Origin: a bacterium HR29 | GTDB taxonomy: Bacteria; Chloroflexota; Dehalococcoidia; Tepidiformales; Tepidiformaceae | Direction: 5' to 3' | Assembly (NCBI GenBank): GCA_002898215.1 | Contig: BEIF01000002.1 | Coordinates: forward strand, 343,936 to 407,935 | DNA length: 64,000 bases | Shown: positions 3,544 through 28,976 of the stretch, one piece after another | Layout: every line of letters starts with the position of its first letter | How positions within the stretch are numbered: position 1 is the first letter of the stretch | The notes under the pieces: model-generated | Seen by the model: only the letters and a program-made list of their open reading frames with translations | Told to the model about the DNA's origin: nothing | Databases searched by the model: none | Made by a program: the position numbers and the translations under genes

Positions 3544-4938
3544 ATGACCGTCCGCCGCCCGATTCGCCGGCGCCTGATGGGCACGCACGTGGCCACCGTG
3601 CGGGCTCCCCGGCCTGCGCGGGCGGTGGGCAGCGGCTCGGTCCAGTTTCTGCTCGGCTTCGGGAGCATCCTCGGCGTAGGAACGCTGCTCCTCTCCCTCC
3701 CCGTGTCCACCGAATCCGGGCATGCGACGCCGGTTCTCGACGCGTTCTTCACCGCCACGTCGGCCCTCTGTGTCACTGGCCTGGTGGTGGTCGATACCCA
3801 GGCCCACTGGAACTTCTTCGGCGAGGCCGTAATCCTCGCCCTCATCCAAATCGGCGGGCTTGGCTACATGGCCGGCGCGAGCGTGGTGCTCTGGATCATC
3901 GGCGGCCGGCTGGGCGTTCGTGACCAGTACATGCTCCGCCTCTATTACGGCGCCCCCACCATGGGCGAAACGTTGACGTTCGTCCGACGCGTGGTGCTCT
4001 ACGCGGTCGGCTTCGAAGCGGTGGGTGCGCTCGTCCTCTTCCTCGCCTTCGGCATGGCCGGCGTGGGATGGGCCCGCTCCGTTTGGTGGGGCATCTTCCA
4101 CGCCCTTTCGGCCTTCAACAACGCCGGCTTCAACGTCACCGGCGTCGACCTCATCCCCTTTGCCGACGTCCCGTACGTCATCATCCCCCACGCCATCCTC
4201 ATCGTCTTCGGCGGATTGGGAGCGGTCCCTGTCCTGACAGCCCTTCAGCGCCGGTCGTGGCGGCGCCTGAATCTCGACTCGCGGCTCATCTTCGTGACGT
4301 CGGCCTGCCTCATCCTGGGCGGTACTGCCTTCATCGCCGCGGCGGAGTGGCGCAACGAGGCGACGCTCGGCGCCCTCTCGCCGTGGCACCGCATCGATGT
4401 CGCCTTCTTCCAGGCGGTCACGCCTCGCACGGCTGGCTTTTCGGCGATCGACATCGGCAAGGCGAGCGAAGAGTCGCTCTTCTTCCTCCTCGGCCTCATG
4501 TTCATCGGTGGCGCGGCCGGGTCGACCGCCGGGGGTATCAAGGTCGGAACGTTGGCGATCCTCATCGCCGCGGTGGTGGCGGTGCTGTTGGGCCGGGACG
4601 AGGTGTCGGCCTTCGGCCGCCGCGTCCACCGAGGAGTCATCTTGCAGGCGCTCGCCATCGTGGTGACCTTCCTGGCGATGCTCTTCGTGCTCACGGTGGC
4701 GCTCTTGGCCACGACCGACTTCGACTCCTTGGCCACCCTCTTCGAAGTGCAGAGCGCGATGGGGACCGTGGGGCTCTCGACGGGCATCACCCCCTCGGTG
4801 GGCGCGGCAGGGAAGGTGATCCTCATCGTCGGGATGCTCTTCGGGCGCTTCGGTCCCCTGGTGATGGTCCTCGAAATGACGCGGGTCCGCCGGAAATCGA
4901 TCTTCCGCCTGCCGGAAGATAGCATTCGCCTCGGATAA
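3544..4938 (+). CDS. ktrB: Potassium uptake protein, TrkH/KtrB family channel subunit
   Basis: 464 residues, the usual length of KtrB. The four pseudo-repeated pore loops with selectivity-filter glycines are visible: TSALCVTGLVV (72-82), AFNNAGFNVTG (190-200), TPRTAGFSAID (293-303) and QSAMGTVGLSTG (403-414). The Gly-rich stretch IGGAAGSTAGGIKVG (321-335) is the gating loop of the third repeat. It is an inner-membrane K+ (or Na+-coupled K+) channel gated by the RCK subunit encoded nine bases downstream, with which it forms an operon. Start chosen at 3544; an ATG at 3577 is an alternative. Confidence 0.95.
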   Translation: MTVRRPIRRRLMGTHVATVRAPRPARAVGSGSVQFLLGFGSILGVGTLLLSLPVSTESGHATPVLDAFFTATSALCVTGLVVVDTQAHWNFFGEAVILALIQIGGLGYMAGASVVLWIIGGRLGVRDQYMLRLYYGAPTMGETLTFVRRVVLYAVGFEAVGALVLFLAFGMAGVGWARSVWWGIFHALSAFNNAGFNVTGVDLIPFADVPYVIIPHAILIVFGGLGAVPVLTALQRRSWRRLNLDSRLIFVTSACLILGGTAFIAAAEWRNEATLGALSPWHRIDVAFFQAVTPRTAGFSAIDIGKASEESLFFLLGLMFIGGAAGSTAGGIKVGTLAILIAAVVAVLLGRDEVSAFGRRVHRGVILQALAIVVTFLAMLFVLTVALLATTDFDSLATLFEVQSAMGTVGLSTGITPSVGAAGKVILIVGMLFGRFGPLVMVLEMTRVRRKSIFRLPEDSIRLG

Positions 4939-4947
4939 GGAGTTCCC

Positions 4948-5592
4948 ATGGATGTCGCCATCCTTGGCCTCGGGCGCTTCGGCACCCAGCTCGCCCGAGA
5001 GCTCGTTCGCCTCGGCGTCCAGGTCCTCGCGGTCGATCGCGACGAGGAGCGGGTCAACGAGGTAGTCGAAGAGGTCTTCCTCGCCGCCCAGGGGAACGTC
5101 GCCGACGTCGAGTTTCTGGAGTCATTGGGCCTGCACAGCTACGACTCCGTGGTCGTCGCCATCGGCAACGACGTTGCGACGAGCGTCCTCGTAACCCTCA
5201 CGCTGAAGCAGCACCTCCGCCACCGCCACGTGGTCGCCAAGGCTCGCGACGACCAGCACACCCGGGCGTTGGAGCTGGCAGGGGCGGACGTCGTTACGAA
5301 TCCGGAGAAGGAGGCGGCCATTCGCTTGGCCCATACCCTCGGCGCCCGGACCGTGAGCGACTACATGGCCCTGGTGGGCGACTACGGCCTGGCGCGTGTC
5401 CGCGCGCCCGTGAGCGCGCATGGCCACACGCTCGAAGAGCTGGACATCGGCAAGCGTTACAAGGTTTTCCTGGTGGCCCGCATCCGGGGCGACAAGGTGA
5501 GCTTCAACCCGGCGCTGGACGAGGTGGTCCAACCTGGCGATGCCTGGATCGTCGCCGGTCGGGACGCCGACATCCGCGAGCTGCAGCGGTAG
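4948..5592 (+). CDS. ktrA: Potassium uptake regulatory subunit, RCK_N/RCK_C (KtrA/TrkA)
   Basis: 214 residues with one RCK unit, so KtrA-like rather than the double-length TrkA. The N-terminal Rossmann domain begins AILGLGRFGTQLA (GxGxxG nucleotide-binding loop), with the conserved acidic end of the second strand in AVDRDEERV. The C-terminal RCK_C domain, a site known in some KtrA proteins to bind c-di-AMP, covers about residues 140-214. An AAGGAG ribosome site lies just upstream. It forms a cytosolic ring that opens or closes the KtrB channel. Confidence 0.93.
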   Translation: MDVAILGLGRFGTQLARELVRLGVQVLAVDRDEERVNEVVEEVFLAAQGNVADVEFLESLGLHSYDSVVVAIGNDVATSVLVTLTLKQHLRHRHVVAKARDDQHTRALELAGADVVTNPEKEAAIRLAHTLGARTVSDYMALVGDYGLARVRAPVSAHGHTLEELDIGKRYKVFLVARIRGDKVSFNPALDEVVQPGDAWIVAGRDADIRELQR

Positions 5593-25688: not shown

Positions 25689-26024
25689 CTACCAGCGGCG
25701 CCCGCGCCCACCGCCTCGCTGCGTGCCGAACGAGGGGCGCGGGGAGCTGGGTCGGTAGCAGTCGCTGCAGTAGACCGGTCGGTCTCCGCGCGGCTCGAAC
25801 GGGAGCTGAGCTTCCCGGCCGCAGGAAGCGCAGACGGCGGAATACGTGGTCCGCTGGGACCGGTGTCCCCCCGAGGATTCGCCCCGACGAGCGCGCCGGC
25901 AGGTGGGGCAGCGCTTCGGCTCGTTCGTGAACCCCTTCGAGGCGTGGAACTCCTGTTCACCCGCGGTGAACGCGAACGTGGCGCCGCAATCGGCGCAAAT
26001 CAGGCTTTTGTCGGTGTATGCCAC
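25689..26024 (-). CDS. Zinc-ribbon domain protein (CxxC-type)
   Basis: 111 residues from GTG 26024 with TTGGAGG upstream. Three Cys pairs are visible: CADC (residues 10-13), CPTC (39-42) and CASC then CSDC further on, separated by a conserved-looking EQEFHASKGFTNEP. The first two pairs with the intervening Phe-rich strand form the zinc-ribbon I associate with a small family widespread in Chloroflexi; the tail is Arg/Gly-rich and might touch nucleic acid. The function is unknown. A 256-base spacer separates it from the divergent prs. Confidence 0.85.
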   Translation of the reverse strand: MAYTDKSLICADCGATFAFTAGEQEFHASKGFTNEPKRCPTCRRARRGESSGGHRSQRTTYSAVCASCGREAQLPFEPRGDRPVYCSDCYRPSSPRPSFGTQRGGGRGRRW

Positions 26025-26228
26025 CCGACGACCTCCAACCAGAATTTCGGACCCCTTCGGTCATCGGGCGGGGGTAGTCGCCTCCCAGCGAGGCCGATGC
26101 GACGAGGGTTACCTGCGCGCAGGCTACCAGGTTTCCAGCCCCCTGCCAAGCGCGACCCCGGAAGCCCTGGAGACTGGAGCGGAGCCGTGGTACAGTGCAA
26201 CCGCTACCAGTCAGACGCCCAAAGCCCC

Positions 26229-26254
26229 GTGCCGGGAGGTCGTGCTCCCGGCAC
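26229..26254 (+). promoter_or_regulatory. 10-bp hairpin in the prs leader
   Basis: GTGCCGGGAG (26229-26238) pairs perfectly with CTCCCGGCAC (26245-26254) around a 6-base loop, 26 bases before the start. A TACAGT -10-like box lies about 40 bases further upstream. There is no T run, so translational control or mRNA stability is more likely than termination. Confidence 0.4.
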
Positions 26255-26280
26255 GACCACGTAGGGAGCCTCGCAGCGCC

Positions 26281-27222
26281 GTGTACAGCGACCTCGCTTG
26301 CTTCTCCGGCCGAGCCCATCCCGAACTCGCCCGAGCGATCTGCGAGCGGCTCTGCATCCCGCTTGGGGATGTCGACGTTTTCGAGTTCTCCAACGAGAAC
26401 ATCTTCGTCCAGTACCGGGAGAACATCCGCATGCGGGATGTCTTCCTCATCCAGCCGTTCGCTCGACCGGTGAACACGTCGATCATGGAGCTCCTCATCA
26501 TGATCGACGCCGCCCGCCGTGCCTCGGCAGGACGCATCACAGCCGTCATCCCCTACTACGCGTACGGCCGCTCCGACAAGAAGGACCAACCTCGGGTGCC
26601 CATCACCGCCCGTCTCGTGGCGAACCTTCTGGAGACGGCCGGCGCCGACCGCGTCCTCACCATGAACCTCCACGCGGGGCAGATTCAAGGCTTCTTCAAC
26701 GTGCCGGTCGACGAACTCAACGCGCTCTACCCGGTGAGCGCATACCTTCGGTCCCTCGGCCTCGAAAACTACACGGTCGTCGCGCCCGACGTCGGTGACG
26801 AGAAGCGCGCGCGCGACATGGCGGCCCGCCTCGACGCTCCCCTGGCGATCATCGAGAAGCGCCGAATCGGCAACACGGGCCGAGCGGAGGCGGTCAACGT
26901 CATCGGCGACGTGCGGGGGCGGAACGTCCTCATCATCGACGACGAAATCGATACGGCCGGCACCATGGCGGAAGCGGTCCGCATCCTCCGGGAGCACGGC
27001 TGCCGCGACGTGATGATCGTCGGGTATCACGCTGTGCTCAGCGGCCCGGCCGTCGACCGCCTGCGGGAGGCCGCCGTCCGGGAGATCGTCGTCACCGATT
27101 CGCTCCCCATTCCCCCCGAGAAGCGCCTGCCGAACATGACCATCATCCCGGTCGCCCCGCTCTTCGGCGACGCCATCAGCCGCATCCATTCGGGGCAGAG
27201 CGTGGGGGCGCTCTTCCAGTAA
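26281..27222 (+). CDS. prs: Ribose-phosphate pyrophosphokinase (PRPP synthetase)
   Basis: 313 residues from a GTG at 26281, where the N-terminus YSDLACFSGRAHPELA aligns with the usual family start; a GTG at 26242 is an alternative. It makes PRPP from ribose-5-phosphate and ATP for nucleotide, His and Trp synthesis. Seen: FEFSNENIFVQYRENIR, the ATP/flexible loop segment YYAYGRSDKKDQPRVPITA with the catalytic basic residues, HAGQIQGFF, DVGDEKRAR, and the PRPP loop LIIDDEIDTAGTM. It is cytosolic and oligomeric. A perfect hairpin lies in its leader. It is convergent with the small zinc-ribbon gene downstream. Confidence 0.93.
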   Translation: MYSDLACFSGRAHPELARAICERLCIPLGDVDVFEFSNENIFVQYRENIRMRDVFLIQPFARPVNTSIMELLIMIDAARRASAGRITAVIPYYAYGRSDKKDQPRVPITARLVANLLETAGADRVLTMNLHAGQIQGFFNVPVDELNALYPVSAYLRSLGLENYTVVAPDVGDEKRARDMAARLDAPLAIIEKRRIGNTGRAEAVNVIGDVRGRNVLIIDDEIDTAGTMAEAVRILREHGCRDVMIVGYHAVLSGPAVDRLREAAVREIVVTDSLPIPPEKRLPNMTIIPVAPLFGDAISRIHSGQSVGALFQ

Positions 27223-27246
27223 TGCCGTCCGGGAACGGTGGCCCTC

Positions 27247-27426
27247 CTAGAAGCGCCACTCCGGAACGCGCACGTGGCACCGCCGGCAATAGCGGTCCGT
27301 CGGCTCGTAGGGAGCGGCGCATTCGGGGCATCGGCGCTGTTCGGCAGGCCGGACGAGCACGTACGACGGTACCCGCAGCCGCCACACGAGCCGCTGCCAC
27401 CACGATTCGTAGCCACGTCGAAGCAT
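27247..27426 (-). CDS. 59-residue zinc-ribbon protein downstream of a c-di-AMP riboswitch
   Basis: A short gene easily missed by size cut-offs. GGGAGG seven bases before ATG 27426; stop TAG at 27247-27249. The product starts MLRRGYESWWQRLVWRLRV, an amphipathic Trp/Arg-rich segment that may sit at the membrane surface, then PSYVLVRPAEQRR, then a compact zinc ribbon CPEC (33-36) and CRRC (47-50), ending HVRVPEWRF. No family is recognised. It is the only gene on this strand between the riboswitch (27507-27632) and the convergent prs end, so it appears to be the riboswitch's sole local target. Confidence 0.75.
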   Translation of the reverse strand: MLRRGYESWWQRLVWRLRVPSYVLVRPAEQRRCPECAAPYEPTDRYCRRCHVRVPEWRF

Positions 27427-27776
27427 CGGTGTGCCTCCCGTTCAGTGCCGGTTCCCCGGCGTTCTCCCGCGAGAGGCAACGTCGGCAGGCTGAGCGGCTG
27501 CCGGCCGCCTCTCTCACGCCTACGGGGTTAGCTGCCGGGTTCGGTGGAGAAAGTCACCTATCCCGCCGTGGCGGGAATTCACCCCACAATGTCGGGTCCC
27601 CCGTTCCGCTCGGCAGCGGATTCGGCAGCCCAAGCGTACCACACCACTGCAAGCCCCCCGAGCCGAGCAGATCCGAGAGTCGCCTTCGAACGTAAATCGA
27701 TCGGTCGACACCTGCGAATCGTTCACGCCACCGCAATTGACCGCCACCCCCACCGACACGTCGGAAGGAGCGCCAC
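27427..27776. other. 350-base spacer holding the c-di-AMP riboswitch and the P450 leader
   Basis: Apart from the riboswitch (27507-27632) and the 80-base leader of the zinc-ribbon gene, the remaining ~140 bases before the P450 gene are relatively AT-richer and include TTGACC near 27737, a possible -35, without a convincing -10. No further gene is seen. Confidence 0.5.
27507..27632 (-). promoter_or_regulatory. Cyclic-di-AMP (ydaO/yuaA) riboswitch
   Basis: On the minus strand the conserved blocks occur in order: GCTGCCGAATCC, CGGAACGGGGGACCCGACA, GGGGTGAAT, a variable hairpin (CCCGCCACGGCGGG), ATAGGTGAC, and the hallmark CCGAACCCGGCAGCTAACC then CCGTAGGCG. This matches the two-fold ligand-binding core of ydaO-type c-di-AMP riboswitches as I know them. 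It lies about 80 bases ahead of the 59-residue zinc-ribbon gene. No classical terminator with a U run follows, so translational control is plausible. Confidence 0.9.
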
Positions 27777-28976
27777 GTGCCGTACTTCGACCCCGCTCGA
27801 CCGTCGTACCTCGAGAACCCCTACCCCGCCCTCGCCCGCCTTCGCCGCGAAGCTCCCGTTGCCTGGATTCCTACGCTGCAGGCATGGGTGGTCACCGCCT
27901 GGGACCCCCTCGCCGAGGTGCTCCACGACCACGCTTCCTTTTCGGCCGACCCCGCCTCCGCCGGCGGCGAGTTCGGGGCTCGTGTCCGCGCCTCGCGCGC
28001 CCGCATACCCCTGGGCGGTGCCCCCATCATGGGGAATAGCGACCCGCCCCTCCACGACCTGCTCAGGCGCCGGGTGAACCGCTGGTTCACCCCCGCCGCG
28101 GTTGCCAGGCTTCGCGCCGACGTCGAACGCGTCGCCAGCGCCCTTCTCGGTGATCTCCCATCGGACGCCCCTGTGGACATCATGGGGAGCTTCGCCGAGC
28201 GCCTTCCCGTACAGGTCATCCTCCACCTCCTCGGCGTCCCGGCGTCCCAGCAGGCGGCCTTTCGGACGGCCTGCCTGGCTATCATGCGTGCGCGGAACGA
28301 AGGCGCCGGGAACCCCGAGGTCGTGGCCGACGCGGCGAACGCCGTGGAGCGCCTTGACCGCGTCTTGAGGGAAGCTCCTCCGGACAGCCTCATCGGGCGG
28401 CTCCGTGGCGAAGCGGTGCCCGAGGAGCTCCCGCCGGAACATCTCCTGATGCTCGTGGTCCACCTCGCCACCGCCGGCAACGGACCCCTGGCGCTCTTCA
28501 TCGGCAACGCGGTGCTCGCCCTCGCTGCGAACCCCGAAGCCGCCGAGGCTCTCCGGCAGGGGAGCGTCTCGTGGGTCGCCGCCCTCGAAGAGCTCGCTCG
28601 GTTCGATACGCCCACTCACGTCATCTCCCGTTGGGCGAAGGCGCCCGTCGCGCTCGCCGGCCGTTCGGTTCGGCCCGGCGACACGGTGCACTTGGTGCTC
28701 GGCGCGGCGAACCGCGACCCCGCTCGCTTCTCCGAGCCCGACCGTCTCGATTTCGGCCGCCGGCCGGGTCGGCACGCCGCCTTCGGCCTCGGCGTTCACT
28801 TCTGCCTGGGGGCAAACCTGGCCCGTCTCGAGGCCGAAGTTGCGCTTCGTCTTCTCCTGGAGCGCTTCCCCGACCTGCGGGTGCTGTCCGTGGAACGGCT
28901 CCCGTCCTTCCAGCTCCGCGGTCCGCGCCGGCTCGTTCTCGCGCCTCCCTCGTCCTTCGTGCCCGTTCGGCCATGA
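27777..28976 (+). CDS. Cytochrome P450
   Basis: 399 residues, a soluble bacterial P450; GTG start with GGAAGGAG upstream. The heme-binding loop FGLGVHFCLGANLARLE places the thiolate at Cys343. The ExxR motif is EELARF and the following TPTHVISRWA is the usual substrate-recognition strand. The I-helix is odd: it reads LATAGNGPLALF (residues 230-241), with Gly-Pro in place of the acid-Thr pair that normally delivers protons to O2. That may mean altered chemistry such as peroxide use or fatty-acid-type reactions. No ferredoxin or reductase partner lies nearby; the substrate is unknown. Confidence 0.93.
   Translation: MPYFDPARPSYLENPYPALARLRREAPVAWIPTLQAWVVTAWDPLAEVLHDHASFSADPASAGGEFGARVRASRARIPLGGAPIMGNSDPPLHDLLRRRVNRWFTPAAVARLRADVERVASALLGDLPSDAPVDIMGSFAERLPVQVILHLLGVPASQQAAFRTACLAIMRARNEGAGNPEVVADAANAVERLDRVLREAPPDSLIGRLRGEAVPEELPPEHLLMLVVHLATAGNGPLALFIGNAVLALAANPEAAEALRQGSVSWVAALEELARFDTPTHVISRWAKAPVALAGRSVRPGDTVHLVLGAANRDPARFSEPDRLDFGRRPGRHAAFGLGVHFCLGANLARLEAEVALRLLLERFPDLRVLSVERLPSFQLRGPRRLVLAPPSSFVPVRP

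Follow-up and report, generated by a model that had tools for sequence, protein, structure and literature searches.

A c-di-AMP riboswitch dedicated to a small zinc-ribbon gene in the Tepidiformaceae, and likely to act as a translational OFF switch

The genes placed under c-di-AMP riboswitches encode, according to the sections consulted of two papers, potassium, amino-acid and other transporters, osmoregulatory functions and wall-remodelling enzymes (PMC7266159, PMC3766115). The ydaO switch of Bacillus subtilis is described as terminating transcription (PMC9960051), and the solved ligand-bound ydaO aptamer is reported to contain a pseudoknot (PMC5393176); on our own matching of the sequence printed there, this pseudoknot would consist of CUCCUUC and GAAGGAG. 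A different mode of control was proposed for the nlpC gene of Corynebacterium glutamicum, where mRNA was unchanged and reporter protein was lower, so that a translational OFF switch was suggested (PMC9960051). In the literature searched we found no earlier report of a c-di-AMP riboswitch joined to a zinc-ribbon gene; the target tables of Nelson 2013 and Block 2010 lay outside that search. The locus described here carries a riboswitch of this class (RF00379) dedicated to one conserved zinc-ribbon gene of about 60 residues, and it is likely that the element is a translational OFF switch, with the protein made when c-di-AMP is low. This gene, ZR1, would add a new class of target to a riboswitch class already known.

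The window is the whole stretch of 64,000 nucleotides that was analysed, from bacterium HR29. The features of the locus within it are as follows.

27247..27426, minus strand: ZR1, predicted single zinc-ribbon protein gene of 59 codons, stop included in the coordinates (ORF list, orthologues, selection, conservation)
27433..27438, minus strand: Shine-Dalgarno sequence (SD) GGAGGC (GGAGGC in 20 of 21 leaders, GGAGGA in one)
27471..27477, minus strand: anti-SD GCCUCUC (GCCTCTC in 20 of 21 leaders, TCCTCTC in L010)
27483..27503, minus strand: hairpin CGGCAG...CUGCCG between tail and anti-SD (conserved over 20 aligned leaders)
27507..27515, minus strand: aptamer tail GAGAGAGGC (read from the sequence; GAGAGG in 21 of 21 leaders)
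27547..27553, minus strand: aptamer loop CUUUCUC, 5' side of the pseudoknot (UUUCUC pairs with GAGAGA of the tail)
27502..27637, minus strand: c-di-AMP riboswitch aptamer (ydaO/yuaA, RF00379; cmscan, 88.7 bits)
27636..27643, minus strand: TGTGGTAC, putative promoter -10-like element (TGTGGTA conserved directly 5' of the aptamer)

The match of 27637-27502 (-) to RF00379 spans the full model, positions 1-134, and scores 88.7 bits where the gathering threshold is 38 (E 2.1e-19, taken over the whole window), and 27150-27760 is without any other Rfam match at E<=1. An earlier note, made from the letters of this DNA, had placed a ydaO/yuaA aptamer at 27507-27632 (-), which is the same element; the note would have abandoned the idea had the RF00379 score fallen below threshold, and the score lies far over it. 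The pseudoknot between aptamer loop and 3' tail can be formed with 5-7 pairs in 21 of 21 leaders, and we infer that the window copy binds c-di-AMP. Directly upstream, TGTGGTA is conserved over the 20 leaders of the alignment, apart from one departure each in L009, L014 and L017, and is also present in the 16 upstream regions listed. TGTGGTAC may thus be a promoter -10-like element; a sigma-70 consensus scan of 27200-27800 found nothing. In one relative (L010:285-506) the aptamer measures 222 nt, with about 85 nt inserted, and still scores 80.4 bits. A TPP riboswitch lies elsewhere in the window, at 12074-11965 (-), with 76.6 bits.

The ZR1 frame starts with ATG, has GGAGG 7 nt before it, and in the window encodes a single CPEC...CRRC ribbon preceded by W9 and W10. 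The next gene downstream runs in the opposite direction, with its stop at 27222 (prs is the earlier note's name for it, and the name also suggested by eye). The ORF list agrees with that note in making 27247-27426 the sole gene before the convergent prs, and the good ribosome site and the one ribbon that it described are both present. A search of 99 genomes, the host's own included, gave some ZR1 match at E<=0.001 in 33; in 21 of these (own included) the match is full or nearly full-length, and the others match the ribbon only. The 20 other orthologues are 43-64% identical to the window protein, that of G004 being matched over residues 18-59 only. When a profile was run against 393 genomes of the class, the same 21 came back at E<=2.2e-26, with alignments that start at model position 1 or 2 and end at 59 or 60, and the next match came at E 3.2e-7; outside the family the strongest (E 1.4e-6) covers the ribbon only. 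All 21 copies fall within the Tepidiformaceae, where they are spread over 12 of the 18 genera and 21 of the 38 genomes, with Tepidiforma flava and Dehalococcoidia MAGs among the named records. Full-length ZR1 was not found in the other 17 of the 38 family genomes, several of which are incomplete assemblies and some more than 95% complete.

The protein database holds 139 ZR1 homologues, and 105 of the 120 listed are 56-62 residues long, in a search that considers only lengths of 0.55-1.75 times the query. Few of those 120 are named ('hypothetical', OB-fold protein, paraquat-inducible protein A, amidophosphoribosyltransferase), and two carry a precomputed zinc-ribbon-type Pfam label. C33, C36, Y40, Y46, C47, C50 and P55 are invariant in 120 aligned sequences, E56, W57 and R58 are 98% kept and the last glycine is present in 118; toward the N-terminus, conservation is 78% for W9, 75% for W10 and 87% for R12. 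Over the last 29 codons, in all pairs of the 21 copies (pairs that are not independent), codons with a single change were synonymous in 1488 cases and non-synonymous in 618, where 22% synonymous would be expected without constraint. Because the frame has orthologues in 20 other family genomes and is constrained at the codon level, it is, by sequence comparison, a real gene. The window copy is atypical in having CRRC for CPxC and in missing both the final glycine and a conserved 3' element (see below).

The riboswitch accompanies the gene throughout. RF00379 lies upstream on the same strand at 21 of 21 ZR1 loci (cmscan, 80.4-100.1 bits), ending 75-118 nt before the start codon (21 loci, with the L014 start set 3 nt early), and at the nine ribbon-only loci no RF00379 was found within about 1.5 kb (0/9). 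A pattern for the expression platform, GAGAGGC-GGCAGCC-CAGCCTGCC with at most 3 mismatches, was found in 20 of the 21 gene-bearing genomes; the one missed, G001, has a 2-nt insertion in its leader. Among the 17 family genomes in which the gene was not found, the pattern occurs in one (G006), away from all four riboswitches of that genome, and so at no riboswitch in any of them. Since the pattern is present with the gene and absent from riboswitches without it, gene and platform come and go together. That the RF00379 element is dedicated to ZR1, as the earlier note had proposed for the 59-residue gene, is therefore strongly supported, the pair being conserved over 12 genera. The note had asked whether the riboswitch-gene pair is conserved, and it is kept in all 21 copies found; loss of the frame with the aptamer retained, which would have counted against the proposal, did not occur: where the gene was not found, the platform pattern was found at no riboswitch. 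Because the riboswitch is retained with the gene in all 21 genomes, ZR1 apparently belongs to the c-di-AMP response.

The leader alignment comprises 20 leaders, L010 being left out because of its aptamer insertion. The elements follow one another in the order TGTGGTA, aptamer, tail GGGAGAGGC (GAGAGAGGC in the window), hairpin GGCAG...CUGCC, GCCUCUC, a variable stretch, GGAGGC and the start codon; in L016 the hairpin is GGCGG/CCGCC, a change that keeps the pair. In the family, the aptamer loop CUCCC(U) pairs with the tail GGGAGAGGC at (A)GGGAG, while in L005 the pairing by sequence is UUUCUC:GAGAGA. This pseudoknot covaries: U-A, A-U and C-G all occur at one position, and cognate loops and tails form 5.88 Watson-Crick pairs on average vs 5.44 for shuffled ones, a cognate mean that is reached by 2 of 2000 shuffles (16 distinct loop/tail sets).

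The same tail can also pair downstream. In the window tail GAGAGAGGC, the 3' side of the pseudoknot (27515-27510) overlaps the anti-anti-SD GAGAGGC (27513-27507), which is complementary to GCCUCUC over 7 bp in 20 leaders (L005 by sequence) and over 6 bp in L010. The pseudoknot and the tail:anti-SD helix share the GAG of the tail and are mutually exclusive. GCCUC can in turn pair with GAGGC of the SD in 20 of 21 leaders, and in L010 both sides are changed, to UCCUC and GAGGA; this covariation, C/G in 20 of 21 and A/U in L010, is a single event. A C after GGAGG is uncommon at the candidate starts of long frames: in the window it occurs at 5 of 21 such sites, and in the family loci at 14 of 81. 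No run of five T occurs between aptamer and start in any of the 21 ZR1 leaders, and no terminator-like site was found in 27200-27800. An anti-SD with two partners (tail and SD) by complementarity, and no canonical terminator between aptamer and gene, are the features of the nlpC type. An alternative pairing of GYAGGC in the aptamer with GCCUGC was dropped by eye, as L016 breaks it.

These segments suggest how the switch might work. With c-di-AMP bound, the aptamer tail would be held in the pseudoknot, leaving GCCUC free to mask the SD and stop translation; without c-di-AMP, the tail would hold GCCUCUC, the SD would be open and ZR1 would be made. Both the direction (OFF) and the level of control (translation) are thus proposed from the sequence. 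In folding calculations with the aptamer formed and five tail bases of the pseudoknot held, anti-SD:SD pairing exceeded 0.5 in 17 of 20 leaders (L010 left out), the freeing of the anti-SD being partly built into this model; the exceptions were L008, L012 and L014, with pairing of 0.28 or less. Mean SD openness was 0.08 with the pseudoknot held vs 0.35 with the tail:anti-SD helix formed, and it was lower with the pseudoknot held in 20 of 20 leaders, though only slightly in L012. The translational OFF scheme is favored because, with the pseudoknot held, the anti-SD:SD helix forms and SD openness drops.

Without the pseudoknot, both free folding and folding with the aptamer forced gave mixed answers and did not settle the direction. 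With the aptamer forced, the tail:anti-SD helix had a probability above 0.5 in 14 of 20 leaders, and anti-SD:SD pairing went up in L006, L020 and L022 and down in L017, L019 and L024. One might therefore propose the reverse switch, in which c-di-AMP turns ZR1 ON because the intact aptamer lets tail:GCCUCUC form and frees the SD, especially as the tail hairpin is placed (by eye) like the terminator of an ordinary OFF switch. However, the tail bases are needed for the aptamer pseudoknot, which covaries here and has a reported counterpart in the ligand-bound ydaO structure (PMC5393176), and c-di-AMP riboswitches are called OFF switches (PMC9960051), making the reverse direction quite improbable. 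A transcriptional switch, in which the tail:GCCUCUC hairpin is a terminator without a U run, or a Rho site is exposed, and c-di-AMP ends transcription early, has a precedent in termination by the B. subtilis ydaO switch (PMC9960051). It could also draw on the leaders of a second riboswitch-linked gene, ZR2 (see below): in 9 of 22 of them, at least six consecutive T stand before the start, downstream of the aptamer and of what by eye is a hairpin. Yet the ZR1 leaders have neither the T run nor, in the window region scanned, a terminator-like site, and a terminator would not need the covariation of the L010 SD with its anti-SD. Transcriptional control is accordingly rather unlikely for ZR1, and translational repression by bound c-di-AMP is the reading that we retain.

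Two further alternatives concern the gene product. That ZR1 is no gene at all, with a riboswitch that is orphaned or controls something else, might be suggested by a window copy that is short and adjoins a convergent gene, but with the frame open in 21 of 21 loci, the codon-level constraint and the invariant ribbon, this is hardly credible. The protein might instead be a ribosome- or RNA-bound factor with a bL32-like zinc ribbon, and not a regulator of ions or osmolytes. Its length and CxxC spacing are similar to those of bL32, and over residues 21-51 the profile built from the 120 sequences gives a weak match to bL32 (E 0.012). That profile, however, matches an artificial consensus zinc-finger protein more strongly (E 0.0018), a Pfam search of ZR1 at E<=10 did not bring up PF01783, and the genome has its own bL32 elsewhere, the sole PF01783 match. 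A bL32-like factor is thus improbable, and identity of ZR1 as a bL32 paralogue was rejected, given the weak profile match in a genome with its own bL32.

By size (under 70 residues) and by two conserved CxxC pairs, with all four cysteines invariant in the 120 sequences, ZR1 is a one-domain zinc-ribbon micro-protein, and it is predicted to bind zinc through the ribbon. The AlphaFold model has a mean pLDDT of 75; residues 31-50 reach 90-91, and the first 20 stand at 56-57. The amphipathic N-terminus proposed in the earlier note is not well supported, given the latter values and the incomplete conservation of W9 and W10. Pfam DZR and Zn_Ribbon_1 (PF12773, PF13240) match residues 30-50 in part, below their cut-offs (20.9 vs 27.3 bits for DZR, 19.4 vs 25 for Zn_Ribbon_1), and neither the Trp/Arg-containing N-terminus nor the PEWR[FY]G end is covered by the match. 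A fold search of the model against solved structures gave no match with E<=0.001; many of the top matches were short zinc fingers of the RanBP/NZF type, and comparison with solved structures by sequence and fold together gave nothing beyond generic zinc ribbons. ZR1 could perhaps be a small adaptor that binds a protein or RNA partner by means of the ribbon together with the almost invariant PEWR[FY]G end.

The region 3' of the gene has features of its own. A conserved 3'UTR element stands right after ZR1 at L018:1672-1765, at L020:1669-1763 and in 16 more ZR1 loci, but not in the window. It comprises UUCCCUCCUC, a hairpin with loop CCCCUGG that covaries, and a hairpin resembling a terminator, with double changes at 9 of 17 predicted pairs. 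A model of it, R1, was built from 16 of these loci. Of the 21 genomes with the gene, 18 have an R1 match behind ZR1, among them G001 and G017 from outside the building set, while G000, G004 and G009 have none; six further matches are weak (E 4.6e-4 to 9.5e-4). The element reaches the gathering score of no Rfam family. Pairing of UUCCCUCCUC with the SD was rejected, since over 16 loci 525 of 1000 shuffles did at least as well as the cognate sequences. The prs-like frame, at window 25846-27222 (+), is 24 nt from the ZR1 stop. Such a frame is near ZR1 in 9 of the 17 regions compared (the window and 8 relatives), convergent in the window and upstream on the same strand in L043-L046 and L048-L051; it was not seen in the available flanks of the other 8 regions, some of which are cut by contig ends. 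With the frame near in 9 of 17 regions only, and in differing orientation, synteny was set aside as a clue to function. The convergent prs-like frame in the window would fit a local rearrangement that removed the 3' element.

The host appears equipped for c-di-AMP signalling. Its genome encodes one DAC-domain protein (E 1.7e-42), in a 275-residue frame that we take to be of the CdaA type, followed by a 438-residue frame that by eye looks like CdaR. The KtrA/KtrB system that the earlier note saw in the window is represented by a TrkH/KtrB-type match at about 3715-4872 (+) and an RCK_C match at about 5398-5589 (+). RF00379 occurs in 37 of the 38 family genomes, with 169 matches by the summed table, and 104 loci were examined: the 21 ZR1 loci and 83 others (80 fetched plus L001-L003). 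Behind 22 of these 83, one per genome in 22 genomes, lies ZR2, a near-invariant protein of 72 residues with CPKC...CIMC (L003:1715-1933 in the host's own genome; also L061, L085 and L098). ZR2 has 117 database relatives at 1e-5, from Dehalococcoidia or Chloroflexota where the source names anything other than a numbered bacterium, and neither ZR1 nor ZR2 appeared in the other's homology search. With a second riboswitch-linked zinc-ribbon gene in the family, the ZR1 case is less of a one-off.

Other targets include an MFS-type transporter (PF07690, E 2e-4, below cut-off) and a KamA-type radical SAM enzyme (TIGR03820, 1e-24, below cut-off in a frame cut by the locus end); frames resembling SulP and glycosyltransferases were also recognised by eye, as were two unnamed families with proteins of some 160 residues, and a few of the examined loci have no recognisable target. 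The four RF00379 riboswitches of the host genome stand before ZR1, ZR2, the MFS-type gene and a KamA-type pair. The KamA-type (lysine 2,3-aminomutase-like) gene is found at L002:2228-3135, L057, L100 and L107, with a small protein frame between it and the riboswitch in L002, L057 and L100; through it, c-di-AMP might be tied to a beta-amino-acid osmolyte. Frames downstream of RF00379 in L106, L108 and L112 contain, by eye, a third small Cys-rich motif, C-x-HHW...RCKxCG, and an SRPW[EQ]-type stretch recurs, likewise by eye, in several leaders (L101, L106, L112 and L121).

In other systems c-di-AMP governs K+ and osmolytes. Because of this, and because other genes behind the same riboswitch in the family look like transporters and a KamA-type enzyme, ZR1 might by analogy serve K+ or osmotic adjustment. 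The earlier note's idea of a new class of c-di-AMP effector, possibly an osmotic or membrane-associated regulator, is likewise conjectural. It is also possible, though we hold this only tentatively, that c-di-AMP represses a set of stand-alone ribbons (ZR1 and ZR2, each with its own riboswitch and a different platform) that are released as c-di-AMP falls and retune a shared machine, be it polymerase, ribosome or K+ channel. If true, this would give c-di-AMP signalling a new layer of output. In any case, ZR1 is a small, testable candidate in the c-di-AMP response, and it adds the Chloroflexota, where such signalling seems little studied in the literature searched. The comparison of its leaders, covariation included, makes a case for translational control by the RF00379 class.

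Among known systems, the B. subtilis ydaO/kimA element of RF00379 shares with the ZR1 leader a complete aptamer with closing helices and tail pseudoknot before one gene; what differs is the target, here a stand-alone small zinc ribbon, and that no terminator was found. The micro-proteins of Haloferax volcanii with one zinc-finger domain resemble ZR1, as those papers describe them, in having fewer than 70 residues and two C(P)xC-type motifs (PMC6562870, PMC11241148, PMC10716476), but they are archaeal and the sections consulted mention no riboswitch. In its proposed mechanism, the C. glutamicum nlpC riboswitch is similar, as it too has no canonical terminator and has a C-rich stretch complementary both to an upstream G-rich stretch and to the ribosome site (PMC9960051). 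It belongs to another phylum and serves another target, and at ZR1 the competing segments are conserved over 21 genomes, with one compensatory change seen.
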